A DNA stretch of 57,182 nucleotides, taken from the NCBI RefSeq assembly GCF_900491935.1, contig NZ_UEXK01000004.1, positions 3,363,599 through 3,420,780 on the forward strand. The letters are read 5' to 3'. This DNA is from Klenkia terrae (lineage in GTDB: Bacteria > Actinomycetota > Actinomycetes > Mycobacteriales > Geodermatophilaceae). Below are positions 18,212-23,075 of this stretch, in pieces. A program made the position numbers and the translations under genes. The first letter of the stretch is position 1; each line of letters starts with the position of its first letter. The notes beneath the pieces are model-generated. The model was not told the origin of the DNA, did not search any database, and saw nothing but the letters and a program-made list of their open reading frames with translations.

Positions 18212-18373
18212 GTAGAGGGCGTGACCAGCTCCTCCGCACCGACCCGGGCCCGACGGCCCGCGACGTCCCCGGACGTCGTCGTCACCCGTCGACCGCCCGG
18301 CCGACCGGTGGCCGCCCGGCTAGGATCGTCCGACGTGGTGTCCCGTCTGCGGGCGCCGCAGAGAGGACGGCCG

Positions 18374-19072
18374 GTGCCCGACGAGAGCACGGAAGACACG
18401 ACCGCGGCGGTGCCCGCGGTGCCGGTGGTGGCCGAGACCCCCGAGGCGCGGGCCGACGGCAGCCGCAGCGAGCAGACCGAGACCCGGACCCAGCGCGACG
18501 CCCGCTTCGAGCGCGACGCCCTGCCCTTCCTGGACCAGCTGTACCCGGCGGCCCTGCGGATGACCCGCAACCCGGCCGACGCCGAGGACCTGGTGCAGGA
18601 GACCTTCGTGAAGGCCTACTCCGCGTTCCACCAGTTCGCCGAGGGCACGAACCTCAAGGCCTGGCTGTACCGGATCCTGACCAACACCTACATCAACAAC
18701 TACCGCAAGAAGCAGCGGCAGCCGCAGCAGTACCCCACCGACCAGGTGCAGGACTGGCAGCTGTTCGCCGCCGAGGAGCACAGCTCCAGCGGTCTGCGGT
18801 CGGCGGAGATGGAGGCGCTGGACCACCTCCCCGACACCGACATCAAGGACGCCCTCCAGCAGCTGCCGGAGGACTTCCGGCTGGCCGTCTACCTGGCCGA
18901 CGTCGAGGGGTTCGCCTACAAGGAGATCGCCGAGATCATGGGCACGCCCATCGGCACGGTGATGTCCCGGCTGCACCGCGGACGGCGCGGCCTGCAGAAG
19001 CTGCTGGCCGGCTACGCCCGCGAGCGCGGGTTCGCCCGGGCGGGAGCGTTCGAGGAGGGATCGGCATCGTGA
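18374..19072 (+). CDS. sigR: ECF RNA polymerase sigma factor SigR (SigH/RpoE family)
   Basis: A 232-residue group IV sigma factor for the thiol-oxidative stress response. Region 2 is '[33 protein letters not shown]' (with the DAED motif) and '[22 protein letters not shown]'; region 4 is '[45 protein letters not shown]'. An acidic, low-complexity N-terminus precedes them. Start: GTG 18374 with GAGAGGA seven bases upstream; a longer frame from 18221 has no such site, although SigR-type genes can make a longer form from an upstream start. The stop overlaps rsrA by GTGA, giving coupled production of sigma and anti-sigma. Confidence 0.93.
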
Positions 19073-19377
19073 GCGACAGCGAGATCACCAGCTGCGACGA
19101 CGTGCTCACCCACGTCTTCGAGTTCCTGGACCACGAGACCGGCGACGCCCGGCGTGCGGTCATCGCCGAGCACCTCGAGGACTGCTCGCCGTGCCTGCGC
19201 GAGTTCGGCATCGAGCAGGAGTTCAAGGCCCTGGTGCGCAACCGCTGCGGCGGTGACCCCACGCCGATGGGGCTCAAGGACCGGATCAAGATGCAGCTGA
19301 CCCAGGTGTCGTTCGAGGAGAACGGCACCACGGTCACCGTCGAGCAGGTCACGGTCGACCGCACCACGGAGCGGTAG
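19069..19377 (+). CDS. rsrA: Zinc-binding anti-sigma factor RsrA/RshA
   Basis: A 102-residue redox-sensing anti-sigma factor that holds SigR inactive until its thiols are oxidised. The ZAS signature H-x3-C-x2-C is His35-Cys39-Cys42 ('EHLEDCSPC'); Cys9 ('[17 protein letters not shown]') is the likely disulfide partner and zinc ligand. A further Cys60 is present. The C-terminal tail beyond residue 80 is longer than in Streptomyces RsrA. The start GTG 19069 overlaps the sigR stop. A strong hairpin terminator follows 21 bases after the stop. Confidence 0.93.
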
Positions 19378-19398
19378 CACCAGCGCACCCCGCACGAC

Positions 19399-19433
19399 AG
19401 AGGGCCCGGACGACGTCGTCGTCCGGGCCCTCT
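19399..19433. terminator. Perfect 17-bp palindrome, bidirectional terminator
   Basis: Two 17-base arms (19399-19415 and 19417-19433) are exact reverse complements around a single T. The arm reads AGAGGGCCCGGACGACG. It lies between the convergent ends of rsrA and the bL37 gene, so it can end both transcripts. There is no T-run, as is common for actinobacterial terminators. Confidence 0.8.
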
Positions 19434-19445
19434 CTGCGACCGCAC

Positions 19446-19520
19446 CTAGGCGTTGGGCCGCTTGCCGTGGTTGGCGCCGCTCTTCTTGCGGGCGCGCCGC
19501 TTGCGTCCACGCTTGGACAT
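19446..19520 (-). CDS. Ribosomal protein bL37 (24 residues)
   Basis: A 24-codon frame on the minus strand, beginning MSKRGRKRRARKK and ending ANHGKRPNA, followed by TAG. This is the very basic actinobacterial large-subunit protein bL37 first seen in cryo-EM maps of mycobacterial ribosomes; the K-R-G-R-K start and HGKRPNA end match what I recall of that protein. The ATG at 19520 has an exceptionally strong ribosome binding site (GGAGAGGAGGG, about seven bases upstream). The gene is too short for most ORF callers. It converges on rsrA across a shared terminator. Confidence 0.85.
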   Translation of the reverse strand: MSKRGRKRRARKKSGANHGKRPNA

Positions 19521-19735
19521 CGCTGCCCTCCTCTCCTCACGGGGGTCCCGAGGTCCTCGGGCTCCGGCCGTCCAGGGTCTCACGAGCCCTGGTCGGGCTG
19601 CCGGCCCGCGCGCCGGACGGCGCACCGACGAGCAGTGGTCCAGGGTGTGCGGGACCCAGGTCGGGGCATGGACCGGGGGAGCACGGGGGATCCGTCCCCC
19701 GGCGGGCAGGTCGACGCAGGACGAGGGGGCGCGCT
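19521..19735. other. Intergenic control region of bL37 and the biotin-carboxylase-like gene
   Basis: A 215-base gap between two divergent starts. It contains a perfect palindrome CCCGAGG-T-CCTCGGG (19547-19561), 26 bases upstream of the bL37 start, and a hairpin GGGGGA-tccg-TCCCCC (19685-19700) 35 bases upstream of the plus-strand gene; the TCCG loop fits the stable UNCG tetraloop class. No convincing -10/-35 pair stands out on either strand. Confidence 0.5.
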
Positions 19736-20767
19736 GTGGCGGACACCGGCGGGACGGGCATCGGGAGCGTCCTGGTGGCGGGGCGGGGGCCGATGGCGTG
19801 CGCCGTCATCCGGGCCGCGGAGGCGCTCGGGGTCAAGACGGTGGCCGTGCACTCGGCCAGCGAGCGCGACGCCCGGCACGTGCGGCTGGCCGACGACGCC
19901 GTGTGGCTGGGGCCCGCGCCGGCGGCGGAGTCCTACCTGTCGGTCCCGCGGCTGGTGGAGGCCGCCCGCCGCAGCGGGGTGGACGCGGTGCTGCCCGTCC
20001 CGCCGGCGCTGGCCGGCAACGTCGAGCTGGCGTCGGCCGTGGTCGCCGCCGGGCTGACCTGGGTCGGCCCGTCCGCCGCCGTCCTCGAGCGGCTGGGCGG
20101 GGACGGCGCCGAGCCGGCCAGCGAGCAGGGCTTCCTGGCCGTCGTCACCGCCGAGGGCCTGCGGTACGTGACCCCCGTCCGCCGCGACCGGGACGCCGGC
20201 ACCGCCCGGGTGTCCTGGACGCCGGTGGGCTGGCCGGCCGCCGGTGCCCCCGACCTGCCGCGCGCGGCCCGGCGGCTGGCCGAGGTGGGCTGGCGGGGCC
20301 TGGTCACGGTGGGCATCGACCCCGACGGCGCGCTGGCCGAGGTGGCCGCGGGCTTCTCCCTGGACCTCGCGGTCCTGGAGCGGGCGCACGGCGTGGACGC
20401 CGTCGACCTCGCGCTGCGCTGCGCGACCGGTCGGCTGCGGCCCGGGGCCAGCACCCCGCCGCGGCCGGCCGTGGTCGCCCAGCTGCGGGCCACGCTGCCG
20501 CCCGGGGTGGCCGGGCGGGTGACCGGCCGGCTGCCCGACCTGCCCGGCCCGGTCGACGCCGAGGTGGTGGCGGTGGGCGGCTACGCCCCGGGGGACCGGG
20601 TGGACGGCTGGTACGACGCCCTGCTGGCCACGGTGAGCGCCGGCGGACCGGACACCCGGACCGCGGCGGGCCGGGTGGCCGACGTCCTCACCGGGCTGCC
20701 CGAGACCGGCGTGCCGCACGACGGGGCGGCGGTGTGCCAGGTCCTGCACCACCTGGCGGCGGACTGA
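19736..20767 (+). CDS. Catalytically degenerate biotin carboxylase-like protein
   Basis: A 343-residue protein that follows biotin carboxylase from end to end but in reduced form. Residues 10-115 match the N-terminal domain ('VLVAGRGPMACAVIRAAEALGVKTVAVHS', 'RDARHVRLADDAVWLGPAPAAESYLSVP', 'GLTWVGPS'). The ATP-grasp lid is missing: only about 60 residues bridge to 'VGWRGLVTVGIDPDGALAEVAAGFSLDLA', where the real enzyme has its catalytic E-M-N-x-R segment. The end ('VAVGGYAPGDRVDGWYDALLATVSAGGPD') matches the C-terminal domain. ATP and bicarbonate residues are absent, so carboxylation is very unlikely. It precedes the orphan biotinyl protein by 52 bases and probably binds or regulates it. GTG 19736 is the start. 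Confidence 0.8.
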   Translation: MADTGGTGIGSVLVAGRGPMACAVIRAAEALGVKTVAVHSASERDARHVRLADDAVWLGPAPAAESYLSVPRLVEAARRSGVDAVLPVPPALAGNVELASAVVAAGLTWVGPSAAVLERLGGDGAEPASEQGFLAVVTAEGLRYVTPVRRDRDAGTARVSWTPVGWPAAGAPDLPRAARRLAEVGWRGLVTVGIDPDGALAEVAAGFSLDLAVLERAHGVDAVDLALRCATGRLRPGASTPPRPAVVAQLRATLPPGVAGRVTGRLPDLPGPVDAEVVAVGGYAPGDRVDGWYDALLATVSAGGPDTRTAAGRVADVLTGLPETGVPHDGAAVCQVLHHLAAD

Positions 20768-20819
20768 CCGGGTGGTTGGATGGTGCCGACATCCGCACGC
20801 TGCACGAGGAGGTCCGCCG

Positions 20820-21041
20820 GTGGCGGTCGAGGAGATCCACGCCGAGATGGTCTCCAGCGTCTGGAAGGTGCTGGTCGCCCCCGGCGCCGAGGTCGCGGCC
20901 GGTGACACGCTGGTGATCCTGGAGTCCATGAAGATGGAGATCCCGGTGCTGACCGAGCGGGCGGGCACCGTCACCGAGCTGCACGTGGTGGAGGGCGAGG
21001 TCCTCCAGGAGGGCGACCTCATCGCCACCGTCACCGCCTGA
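20820..21041 (+). CDS. Stand-alone biotinyl (biotin/lipoyl attachment) protein, TB7.3 type
   Basis: A 73-residue barrel-sandwich hybrid domain with the biotinylation motif 'ESMKM' (Lys38) and the flanking 'GDTLVILESMKMEIPVLTERAGTVTELHVVEGEVLQEGDLIATV'-type pattern in consecutive parts. It corresponds to mycobacterial TB7.3 (Rv3221c), a free biotinylated protein whose partner enzyme is unknown. The GTG at 20820 has GAGGAGG eight bases upstream. It sits between the pseudo-biotin carboxylase and pdtaS on one strand, 52 and 14 bases apart, so the three are probably one operon. Confidence 0.93.
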   Translation: MAVEEIHAEMVSSVWKVLVAPGAEVAAGDTLVILESMKMEIPVLTERAGTVTELHVVEGEVLQEGDLIATVTA

Positions 21042-21055
21042 GCCCGGGGCCGCAG

Positions 21056-22546
21056 GTGACGCCGCCGCGCAGCAGCCTGTCCGACCGGCTCTCCCGCGCA
21101 CCGGCGGTCAGCCCCTCCCAGGCCGACCACGCACGCCGGCTGGTGGCCGACTGGCAGCTGCTCGCCGACCTGTCCTTCGCCGACCTCACCCTCTGGGTGC
21201 CGCTGGCCGGCGGCGCGTGGTGGTGCGTGGCCCAGGTCCGCCCGCTGACCGCGCCGACCACCCAGCCCGAGGACCTGGTCGGCATCGAGGTCCAGGGCGA
21301 GGCCGCGGCCTCCTTCGTCGAGGTGCACCAGGGCGGCCGGCCGGTGGTCGAGGAGCCCGACGGGTCGGGGTCCGCTCCCCGCCGCCGGGAGGTGCTGCCC
21401 GTGCGGCACGAGGGCGCGGTGGTCGCGGTGCTCGCCCGGGACACCCGGATCTCGGCCAGCCGGCCGCCGTCGGAGCTGGAGCTGACCTACCTGGACATCG
21501 CGGCCGAGCTCGGCCAGATGGTCTCCGCGGGCACCTTCCCGCCCCGCATGCTCGAGGACGCCGAGATGAGCCCCCGGGTGGGCGACGGCCTGGTCCGGCT
21601 GGACGGCGCGGGCCGGGCGGTCTACGCCAGCCCCAACGCGCTGTCGGCCTACCGGCGGATGGGCCTGACCGGGGACGTCGTCGGGGCCGACCTGGCCGAG
21701 CTGACCCGCCGGACGGCGACCGACCGGGTGGCGGGCGAGGTGGTCGCCGCGCACATCGCCGCCGCCGTGGCCGGCCGGTTCCCCGACCCGCTGGACGTCG
21801 AGGGCCAGGCCGCCACGATGCTGGTGCGCGCGCTGCCCCTGCAGGCCCCCGGCGGCGAGCACGGCGCGCTCGTGCTGGTCCGGGACGTCACCGACGTCCG
21901 GCGCCGCGACCGGGCGCTGATGACCAAGGACGCGACCATCCGGGAGATCCACCACCGGGTGAAGAACAACCTGCAGACCGTCGCGGCGCTGCTGCGCCTG
22001 CAGGCCCGCCGGGTGGCCGAGCCCGCGGCGCGCGACGCACTGCTGGAGGCGGTCCGCCGGGTGGCGTCGATCGCGGTGGTGCACGAGACCCTGGCCGGCA
22101 GCCGGGAGGACGTCGTCGACGTCGACGAGGTGCTCGACCAGGTGCTGCCCATGCTGGGCGACGTGGCGTCGGTGGGTCCCTCGGCGGTGATCCGGCGGAC
22201 CGGCCGGTTCGGCGAGCTGCCCGCGGTCAACGCCACCCCGCTGGTGCTGGCGGTGACCGAGCTGCTGCACAACGCGGTCGAGCACGCCTTCGTCGACGGC
22301 CCCGCCGGCAGCATCGAGCTGGTCGCCGAGCGCGACGGCCACGACCTGGTGGTCCGGATCGCCGACGACGGGCGCGGCCTGCCCCCGGGGTTCGACGCCA
22401 CGGCCAGCCGGGGGCTCGGCCTGCAGATCGTGTCGACGTTGGTCACCAGCGAGCTGCACGGACGGCTGGCGATCAGCGCGCCGCCGGAGGGCCCGGGCAC
22501 CCTCGTGGTCCTCGAGCTGCCCGGTGCCGGCCGCGCCCGCCGCTGA
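21056..22546 (+). CDS. pdtaS: Sensor histidine kinase PdtaS
   Basis: A 496-residue soluble histidine kinase: GAF domain (about 25-165), PAS domain (about 175-290), HisKA_2 dimerisation helix and an ATPase domain. The phospho-acceptor motif is 'REIHHRVKNNLQTVAALLRLQ' (His at about 299). The ATP site shows 'LLHNAVEHAF' (N box), 'IADDGRGLPPGF' (G1) and 'GLGLQIVSTLV' (G2). In mycobacteria PdtaS phosphorylates the ANTAR antiterminator PdtaR; that gene is not in this window. The gene is oriented towards whiB1, and a perfect hairpin separates them. GTG start 21056 lies 14 bases behind the biotinyl gene. Confidence 0.93.
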   Translation: MTPPRSSLSDRLSRAPAVSPSQADHARRLVADWQLLADLSFADLTLWVPLAGGAWWCVAQVRPLTAPTTQPEDLVGIEVQGEAAASFVEVHQGGRPVVEEPDGSGSAPRRREVLPVRHEGAVVAVLARDTRISASRPPSELELTYLDIAAELGQMVSAGTFPPRMLEDAEMSPRVGDGLVRLDGAGRAVYASPNALSAYRRMGLTGDVVGADLAELTRRTATDRVAGEVVAAHIAAAVAGRFPDPLDVEGQAATMLVRALPLQAPGGEHGALVLVRDVTDVRRRDRALMTKDATIREIHHRVKNNLQTVAALLRLQARRVAEPAARDALLEAVRRVASIAVVHETLAGSREDVVDVDEVLDQVLPMLGDVASVGPSAVIRRTGRFGELPAVNATPLVLAVTELLHNAVEHAFVDGPAGSIELVAERDGHDLVVRIADDGRGLPPGFDATASRGLGLQIVSTLVTSELHGRLAISAPPEGPGTLVVLELPGAGRARR

Positions 22547-22597
22547 CGCACCCGCTGCAGCCGCGCCTGCTGGAGACGTACCTGCCCCGGACGCACA

Positions 22598-22632
22598 CGG
22601 AGCCGGTCACCACGTCGTGGTGACCGGCTCCG
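22598..22632. terminator. Perfect 17-bp palindrome between pdtaS and whiB1
   Basis: Arms 22598-22614 and 22616-22632 are exact reverse complements around one T (arm CGGAGCCGGTCACCACG). It lies between two convergent genes and can serve both. Its 17-1-17 layout copies that of the rsrA/bL37 terminator. Confidence 0.8.
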
Positions 22633-22656
22633 GGGTCGGTGCGGGGGCGCGTCGGG

Positions 22657-22905
22657 TCAGGTGCGGACGCGGGCGCGCTGGGTTCGGCGCTTGAGGGCGC
22701 GGCGCTCGTCCTCGGAGAGCCCACCCCAGACGCCGGAGTCCTGGCCGGAGGTGAGTGCCCACTCGAGGCAGGACTGCACCACCGGACAGCGGTGGCACAC
22801 AGCCTTGGCCTGCTCGATCTGGGTGACCGCAGGGCCCGTCGTCCCGATCGGGAAGAAGAGCTCGGGGTCCTCGTCCCGGCAGAGGGCGCGGTGGCGCCAG
22901 TCCAT
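22657..22905 (-). CDS. whiB1: WhiB1 iron-sulfur transcription factor
   Basis: An 82-residue Wbl protein that ligates a [4Fe-4S] cluster through Cys9, Cys37, Cys40 and Cys46 ('ALCRDED', 'VCHRCPVVQSC'), followed by the turn 'GVWGG' (58-62) and a basic C-terminal 'RRALKRRTQRARVR' for DNA. WhiB1 is essential in mycobacteria, binds the principal sigma factor and reacts with nitric oxide. Start: ATG 22905 with GAGGAG nine bases upstream and the expected family length; a longer frame to 23007 is not supported. Position beside pdtaS matches the mycobacterial order. Confidence 0.95.
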   Translation of the reverse strand: MDWRHRALCRDEDPELFFPIGTTGPAVTQIEQAKAVCHRCPVVQSCLEWALTSGQDSGVWGGLSEDERRALKRRTQRARVRT

Positions 22906-22980
22906 GTCGGTGTGCTCCTCGGTGTCGTCTACGGTGTGCCCGGACCCCGGTGCCGGCGCGAGCCGGTCCTGGTCGGCCGA

Positions 22981-23075
22981 CGACGGCTGGATCGCCGTCG
23001 GCGGCACATCGCACGCTGGTGTTACCAGCGGGTTGCGTTCGTGGTCGATCGTTTCACGCGACGGGGAGCTGTCAA
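22981..23075 (-). promoter_or_regulatory. whiB1 promoter and leader with two dyads
   Basis: On the minus strand TTGACA (23070-23075) and AACGAT (23048-23053) are separated by 16 bases, a good -35 and a fair -10. Transcription would start near 23041 and leave a leader of about 135 bases. The leader holds a perfect dyad CGCTGGT-gtt-ACCAGCG (23014-23030) and a second, CGACGGC-tggatc-GCCGTCG (22981-23000). Either may be an operator or an RNA hairpin. The rest of the 298-base gap up to 23203 shows nothing I can name. Confidence 0.5.

Follow-up and report, generated by a model that had tools for sequence, protein, structure and literature searches.

In plants, the BADC proteins are non-biotinylated relatives of BCCP which reportedly assist the assembly of plastid ACCase or inhibit it (PMC11926652). 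In some organisms, PII proteins bind BCCP and inhibit ACCase, and the PII of M. tuberculosis has been tested with AccA3; this work (PMC11001197), which is not among the open-licence papers containing 'TB7.3' or 'Rv3221c', shows that a biotin carrier can have a partner that is no enzyme. As for TB7.3, a conserved free biotinyl protein, one paper (PMC3048393) goes no further than to call it a putative carrier subunit of ACC. In the open-licence literature, neither an enzyme for TB7.3 nor a conserved biotin carboxylase (BC) homologue deprived of its catalytic parts (hereafter dead BC) was found described.

The window, i.e. the whole stretch of 57,182 nucleotides from Klenkia terrae analysed here, encodes such a protein on its forward strand (19736..20767, GTG start, 343 amino acids), as recognized by Pfam, AlphaFold2, Foldseek and alignments. 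Residues 10-117 match the BC N-terminal domain (PF00289, E 1.4e-27), while the BC C-terminal domain (PF02785) is matched weakly (17.3 bits for a cut-off of 32.4, E 0.0053). Among the four Pfam families with E<=1, the usual BC ATP-binding domain, which we take to be CPSase_L_D2, is absent. Because profile-profile comparison (hhalign) with five intact TB7.3-linked BCs gives a probability of 96.1 and an E-value of 3.1e-9, the middle and C-terminal half are still BC-derived, and the C-terminal domain is recognized by this comparison and by its fold despite the sub-cut-off Pfam score. Indeed, the AlphaFold2 model of the protein alone, a check proposed by the first-pass annotation, is confidently BC-like (mean pLDDT 90.5, pTM 0.91), and all 50 PDB matches shown by Foldseek are BCs or BC-containing carboxylases (query TM 0.74-0.82), in agreement with the N- and C-terminal BC domains which that annotation had read. 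The fold of both domains is thus shared with stand-alone BCs, be they of the E. coli AccC type or the TB7.3-linked BCs of Actinomycetes, and with the latter the protein also shares its gene place and its side of the tree. The 343-residue product is thus related to BCs but has lost the ATP-grasp lid and almost every catalytic residue.

It differs from stand-alone BCs in having neither lid nor glycine-rich loop and in its active site. Residues 120-150 (20093..20185, + strand; exact junction alignment-dependent) cover the region of the missing helix and lid, and in 80/80 Geodermatophilaceae dead BCs 52 of the 76 lid positions (E. coli 130-205) as well as the glycine-rich loop (E. coli 163-166) are gapped, which confirms the loss of the lid first read in the window. 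The few residues aligned inside the lid region are placed differently by two alignments. Further along, EVAAGFSLDL (residues 202-211, 20339..20368, + strand, by alignment) replaces E. coli 288-EMNTRIQVEH. The reading of VAAGFSLDL in place of the catalytic segment therefore holds, though the Glu equivalent to E288 (E202) is kept in all 80 sequences: N290 has become A (79 sequences) or S (one), R292 G, E296 D and R338 Q. Out of 23 positions that we take to form the active site, only two (E288 and D382) are unchanged from E. coli in the majority of the 80 dead BCs. With the lid and catalytic residues gone, the protein should not carboxylate biotin, and since R338 and E296 of the biotin site have both been substituted, it may not bind biotin itself.

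Directly behind this gene lies a TB7.3-type free biotin carrier protein of 73 amino acids (20820..21041, + strand), a clear member of the TB7.3 / Rv3221c family (NF004547, E 1.2e-32, 112.0 bits for a curated cut-off of 75; PF00364, E 1.6e-16) with an ESMKM biotinylation motif around Lys38 (20922..20936, + strand). The free biotin-attachment protein with an intact motif noticed at first reading is thus confirmed; ESMKM is present in 78/78 named family loci having TB7.3. Moreover, the linkage, which was to be checked in relatives, proved to be a family trait, TB7.3 being directly downstream of the dead BC in 78 of the 80 named loci.

Where a lineage has no BC at this locus, TB7.3 stands alone; in Geodermatophilaceae it follows the dead BC, and in other Actinomycetes the same slot often holds an intact enzyme. 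The order sigH-rsrA-BC-TB7.3 with an intact BC is found in three genomes (G132, G149 and G117), and an intact BC is directly upstream of TB7.3 in G119. Outside the order of Geodermatophilaceae, a same-strand BC match is located at most 1.5 kb upstream of TB7.3 in 16/21 loci, and each of the 19 linked BCs included in the tree matches 20-22 of the 23 active-site positions, as well as all 11 positions that we presume to be the core catalytic set. In one comparison the 20 loci were hand-picked, partly for coordinates suggesting a BC beside TB7.3, so that the five found among them are not a rate; in G036 TB7.3 sits at a contig end where the upstream gene could not be judged, and the G072 locus was left out. 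One of the families, f8, appears mycobacteria-like. Because intact BCs fill the slot beside TB7.3 in other families, the two seem to be partners of long standing, and the partnership proposed by the first-pass annotation is strengthened in this ancestral sense, present-day binding staying tentative. Beside intact BC-TB7.3 pairs, no carboxyltransferase (CT) gene was recognized by eye when the 60 N-terminal residues of every called frame were read across 20 regions; in G009, however, a CT-like frame is located close to the BC-carrier pair. SixA, HMG-CoA lyase, PilT, acyl-CoA ligase and CT are presumptive names given to frames read in this way. In 11 of 12 chosen family genomes, no live stand-alone BC of the TB7.3-linked clade was found.

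In a tree of 48 sequences, picked by hand from a larger set (L046 was aligned but not chosen), a branch with 100/99 support separates 12 other BCs from all dead and TB7.3-linked BCs. A branch supported at only 77/83, where long branches meet, sets the 17 dead rows apart, so that the loss may have happened once or several times. As long branches among the dead rows were flagged by the tree program and the intact BC of G149 adjoins the other BCs (91/79), the inner order is unsure. Alignments reveal a graded decay from family f12 to Geodermatophilaceae, and a dead copy is retained by Geodermatophilaceae and a second family. Taken with the shared slot, the 100/99 branch points, long-branch warning included, to an ancestor shared with the intact BCs found upstream of TB7.3, an origin that the first-pass annotation had not noticed: the dead BC almost certainly descends from a stand-alone BC, the enzyme partner of TB7.3, with its catalytic parts lost. 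We infer the direction of change, with the intact BC ancestral, from distribution rather than from a species-tree reconstruction, the alternative being that BC was gained beside TB7.3 in some lineages. TB7.3 was probably the carrier of this stand-alone BC, which some lineages lost or moved, leaving an orphan TB7.3.

What this descendant does today is necessarily more conjectural. Our best guess is that, without catalysing anything, it helps to dock or assemble biotinyl-TB7.3 or another carboxylase, and we give the whole explanation, a descendant of the TB7.3-linked BC serving as non-catalytic docking partner of biotinyl-TB7.3, a probability of roughly 45%. Both terminal domains and what is left of the core are retained under selection, and the protein would most likely still dock the biotinyl domain of TB7.3 as a non-catalytic subunit, a mechanism for which we hold a tentative preference. 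It might keep hold of holo-TB7.3 or offer it to an active carboxylase encoded elsewhere in the genome (AccA-type BC plus carboxyltransferase), or shield holo-TB7.3 from one. By analogy with BADC, both would be carboxylase subunit homologues having lost catalysis and kept as non-catalytic partners; BADC is a dead carrier with a live BC, whereas the Geodermatophilaceae pair is a dead BC with an intact carrier, a mirror image by analogy only. PII, going by its fold, is not known to be related to the dead BC. More speculatively, a BC could have turned, on one or perhaps several occasions, into a protein devoted to binding the free biotin carrier, dead BC and holo-carrier forming a non-carboxylating module for biotin or CO2/acyl-CoA status. 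Mycobacterial TB7.3 would then be what remains of that ancestral enzyme, retained for a job that requires no BC of its own.

A different reading is that the cleft of the former active site now accommodates another ligand, metabolite or peptide, after remodelling, the linkage to TB7.3 being merely inherited gene order. Near-invariant new motifs indeed occupy the old active-site loops (AGRGP for ANRGE, LPVPPALAGN for HPGYGFLSEN), and conservation is higher in the 17 of 23 former active-site columns still present (0.932) than in the other columns (0.837), from which excess the cleft looks remodelled and not decaying, a point that speaks for the docking partner too; the excess is modest, however, 391 of 20000 random draws being as high. 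TB7.3 is missing from G032 and from G058 (whose locus is L130), yet both genomes retain a dead BC whose identity, 72%, is ordinary; the protein may therefore work without TB7.3, which weighs against the docking explanation. Against this stands the linkage in 78/80 loci, though gene order alone is no proof of shared function, and we regard a new ligand as possible but unlikely.

More doubtful still is a role as non-catalytic subunit of another BC complex, for instance paired with an AccA-type BC as a heterodimer, in which it would regulate acyl-CoA carboxylases and not TB7.3. It would suit the retained N- and C-terminal domains and the several further BC-type frames of family genomes, but R16, R19, E23, F363 and R366, which we take to be dimer-interface residues of E. 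coli BC, are mostly replaced in the alignment; E23 and F363 are changed in intact TB7.3-linked BCs too.

The first-pass annotation had also placed dead BC, TB7.3 and pdtaS in one operon and suggested that biotin or acyl-CoA status is reported to PdtaS or WhiB1. The kinase is correctly identified (21056..22546, + strand; PF12282, E 7e-38), and only 5-14 bp separate TB7.3 from pdtaS in the window and in four named Klenkia, Klenkia loci being the window's nearest among relatives. This spacing is not a family feature, with gaps below 60 bp in 6/77 loci and below 100 bp in 7/77, so that co-transcription with pdtaS, judged by spacing only, is not conserved. The reporting role fared worse, and we consider it very improbable because an opposite-strand frame, presumably GNAT-like, separates TB7.3 from pdtaS in 65/77 loci; the whiB gene (22657..23007, PF02467, E 8.5e-28) is on the other strand. 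Moreover, PdtaS does not track the dead BC, since pdtaS also follows TB7.3 in 11 of 15 BC-less loci from the 20 hand-picked ones, and we view it as a neighbour rather than a functional part. Like whiB, the upstream genes for a SigH-type sigma factor (18221..19072, + strand, TIGR02947) and an RsrA-type anti-sigma factor (19069..19377, + strand, TIGR03988), both profile matches, serve as conserved locus markers. A transcript shared with sigH-rsrA is doubtful, because a 24-codon gene for a small basic protein intervenes on the opposite strand (19446..19520 in the window, with a similar antisense frame in 77/78 family loci), as does, in the window, a hairpin. The small product is presumably ribosomal protein bL37. 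The hairpin, read by eye between rsrA and the convergent small gene (19400..19432, 15-bp stem, 3-base loop), was not reported by the T-run scan and is a possible transcription boundary. A promoter search over 19000-22700 returned no sigma-70-type site.

Full-length orthologues occur in 96 of 112 Geodermatophilaceae-family genomes, and the gene is real and under purifying selection, its median dN/dS (0.298) being close to that of RsrA (0.283) and PdtaS (0.232). A sequencing or assembly artefact is rejected because the frame is open in 80/80 named loci. One dead BC, in G070, has an in-frame TGA; this locus (L043, with an 8-residue piece) was excluded from the alignments and tree. A decaying pseudogene, to which the lost lid and catalytic residues, the TGA of G070 and the C-terminal third (highest median dN/dS, 0.399) might point, is already largely refuted by the open frames, the overall dN/dS, a mean column identity of 74% with many invariant columns, and the confident fold.

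Within Geodermatophilaceae, an enzyme that once loaded carbon dioxide on a biotin protein thus seems to have been stripped of its catalytic parts, yet conserved beside its carrier, which hints at the origin of the mycobacterial 'orphan' TB7.3. The suggested origin is that of a carrier of a stand-alone BC that is now, depending on the lineage, beside TB7.3, elsewhere, lacking or turned dead, and this natural series of BC states makes the role of TB7.3 without its BC testable in harmless soil actinomycetes.

Downstream of sigH (TIGR02947) and rsrA (TIGR03988), the 343-aa open frame at window positions 19736-20767 on the plus strand encodes a biotin carboxylase (BC)-like protein, and is followed by the gene of a 73-aa TB7.3-type free biotin carrier (112 bits against the NF004547 cut-off of 75) and by pdtaS, with whiB on the opposite strand. 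Klenkia species are the closest named relatives, K. soli reaching 89% across the BC-like protein. Between rsrA and this frame lies a 24-codon minus-strand gene (19446-19520) for a small basic protein presumably resembling ribosomal protein bL37; a similar antisense frame is present in 77/78 family loci.

In Pfam searches, the product carries the BC N-terminal domain (PF00289, E 1.4e-27), while the C-terminal domain (PF02785) scores 17.3 bits, under its cut-off of 32.4; residues 8-124 have a biotin carboxylase as top PDB sequence match. In an alignment with E. coli AccC, all 80 family sequences share gaps at 52 of the 76 positions from 130 to 205, as expected from the first-pass annotation, which described a BC relative lacking the ATP-grasp lid. 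Among 23 positions that we take to form the active site, only two (E288, D382) are kept by most of these 80 proteins; each of 19 intact BCs found beside TB7.3 (hereafter linked BCs) keeps 20-22, including all 11 core catalytic residues. The anticipated BC-type fold was also obtained by AlphaFold2 (pLDDT 90.5, pTM 0.91; alignment of the 80 family members only). Among 282 Foldseek matches in the PDB at E<=0.001, the best 50 are all BCs or BC-containing carboxylases, the top one being AccA3 (5mlk_B; E 4.1e-25, query TM 0.78) and the highest query TM among the matches listed being 0.82 (2gpw_A). Profile comparison with intact linked BCs also gave a match for the middle and C-terminal half by itself (probability 96.1, E 3.1e-9). 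Judged by its sequence, the protein appears dead as a carboxylase and, by its predicted fold, it is BC-like.

This dead BC is a real gene. A search of 112 Geodermatophilaceae genomes gave a match in all of them, ordinary BCs counted: 96, the window's own included, hold a full-length orthologue at >=69% identity, six hold pieces at contig ends or on split contigs, four (G067-G070) a full-length orthologue at just 41-43%, and six (G036, G071-G075) BC-type matches at best. Of the latter, four (G071, G073-G075) have a strongly degenerate BC (28-32%) upstream of TB7.3, and in G036 TB7.3 is the end of the contig. A contig scan retrieved 95 named relatives, of which the best 80 were used (Klenkia, Modestobacter, Blastococcus, Geodermatophilus and Trujillonella, with a few looser or doubtful labels including one UNVERIFIED 'Bacillus'). 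All 80 loci have an open frame of at least 320 codons, and in 78 a same-strand TB7.3 gene starts 66-176 bp past the matched part, in agreement with the proposed tie to a TB7.3-type gene. As for the two exceptions, locus L176 stops soon past the dead BC, and L130 has no TB7.3 up to pdtaS, as judged from the three reading frames of L057, which is the same locus. This interval lacks TB7.3 in genomes G058 (L057/L130 1580-2400) and G032 (L056 4740-6000); in G032 it holds a frame that we read by eye as SixA-like, and the pdtaS match is split over two frames. The median dN/dS (counting method) is 0.298 for the dead BC (N-terminal part 0.222, middle 0.268, C-terminal 0.399), 0.143 for TB7.3, 0.232 for PdtaS, 0.202 for SigH and 0.283 for RsrA, 3217 of 3240 pairs, which are non-independent, falling at dS 0.1-0.9, with dS possibly saturated.

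Intact BCs occupy the same place elsewhere. Among 20 hand-picked loci, three from other families of Mycobacteriales (G132, G149, G117) show sigH-rsrA-BC-TB7.3 with a full-length BC, two have an intact BC at a different place, with TB7.3 lying ~3.8 kb (G152) and ~2.5 kb (G173) downstream of it, and 15 gave no BC match. In G117, one 560-codon open frame spans BC and TB7.3 (L063 3998-5680, minus strand), a candidate natural fusion. A further 30 genomes yielded 19 loci centred on above-cut-off TB7.3 matches: one has an intact BC directly 5' of TB7.3 (G119), one a degenerate BC (G122), and 17 no upstream BC match within the stretch covered. Class-wide, TB7.3 scores above cut-off in 153/246 genomes and, among the 21 loci from outside the order within the 30 best, 16 have a same-strand BC match within 1.5 kb upstream. 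Outside the family, a frame that we read by eye as a PilT-like ATPase is often near TB7.3 (L229-L233, L237, L239, L242, L062, L072).

Degenerate BCs occur in family f12 (G135, G122), in G071, G073-G075 and G067-G070, and in Geodermatophilaceae proper; that of G135 has lost the lid and retains R292, R338 and D382. In a tree that combines 19 linked BCs with 17 dead ones and 12 others, and in which several dead sequences form long branches, the 12 other BCs stand alone across a branch supported at 100/99, hence dead and linked BCs belong together. The intact BC of G149 adjoins the other BCs (91/79), and the function may have been lost once or more, the 17 dead sequences being set apart by a branch supported at 77/83 only. 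From the distribution rather than a reconstruction, we infer that a BC was ancestral at TB7.3.

We favour a putative role of the dead BC as a non-catalytic docking subunit for biotinyl-TB7.3. The likely ancestral partnership, the linkage, the kept domains and a near-invariant but altered cleft speak for docking; its retention in the two genomes without TB7.3 (G032, G058) speaks against. Conservation is higher in the active-site columns that are left than in the other columns (0.932 vs 0.837; 391/20000 draws), which fits docking or a cleft binding a new ligand alike. The nearest precedent known to us is that of the plant BADC proteins (PMC11926652), mirrored with respect to the dead BC; the accessible portions of the open-licence literature, PMC3048393 and PMC11001197 included, yielded no known dead BC or enzyme for TB7.3.

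The suggestion that the dead BC reports to PdtaS fares poorly: the TB7.3-pdtaS gap is <60 bp in 6/77 named loci and <100 bp in 7/77, an opposite-strand gene, GNAT-like in our by-eye reading, separates the two in 65/77 (e.g. L122, L125, L150, L187) and was not found in Klenkia loci, and 11 of the 15 hand-picked loci without a BC match likewise have PdtaS after TB7.3, so that a special signal is unlikely. Tight spacing of TB7.3 and pdtaS is seen in the window (14 bp) and four named Klenkia (5-12 bp), and is not a general feature of the family.

Finally, a live replacement was sought as a linked-type BC in 40 chosen genomes. Among 12 proper Geodermatophilaceae, such a BC (68%) turned up only in G009, paired with a separate carrier; the best matches of the other 11 (57-61%, frames of at least 673 codons) look as expected of fused carboxylases. 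This second, intact BC-carrier pair of G009 (L247 3791-5349) has near it frames that we read by eye as acyl-CoA ligase and carboxyltransferase. Six other genomes encode a BC away from TB7.3 (65-71%, frames of 457-526 codons), 33 kb off in G210 and farther or on another contig in G126, G158, G161, G130 and G231. That of G126 (L248 609-4601) lies near a frame presumably of HMG-CoA lyase type, and may use its distant TB7.3 in trans. In three genomes of family f8, which we infer to be mycobacteria-like, TB7.3 looks orphan, since the best BC match is at 56-57% with frames of at least 696 codons. As the window's TB7.3 shares 50-76% identity with those of other families, with or without a BC alongside, the carrier's own job seems to have been kept.
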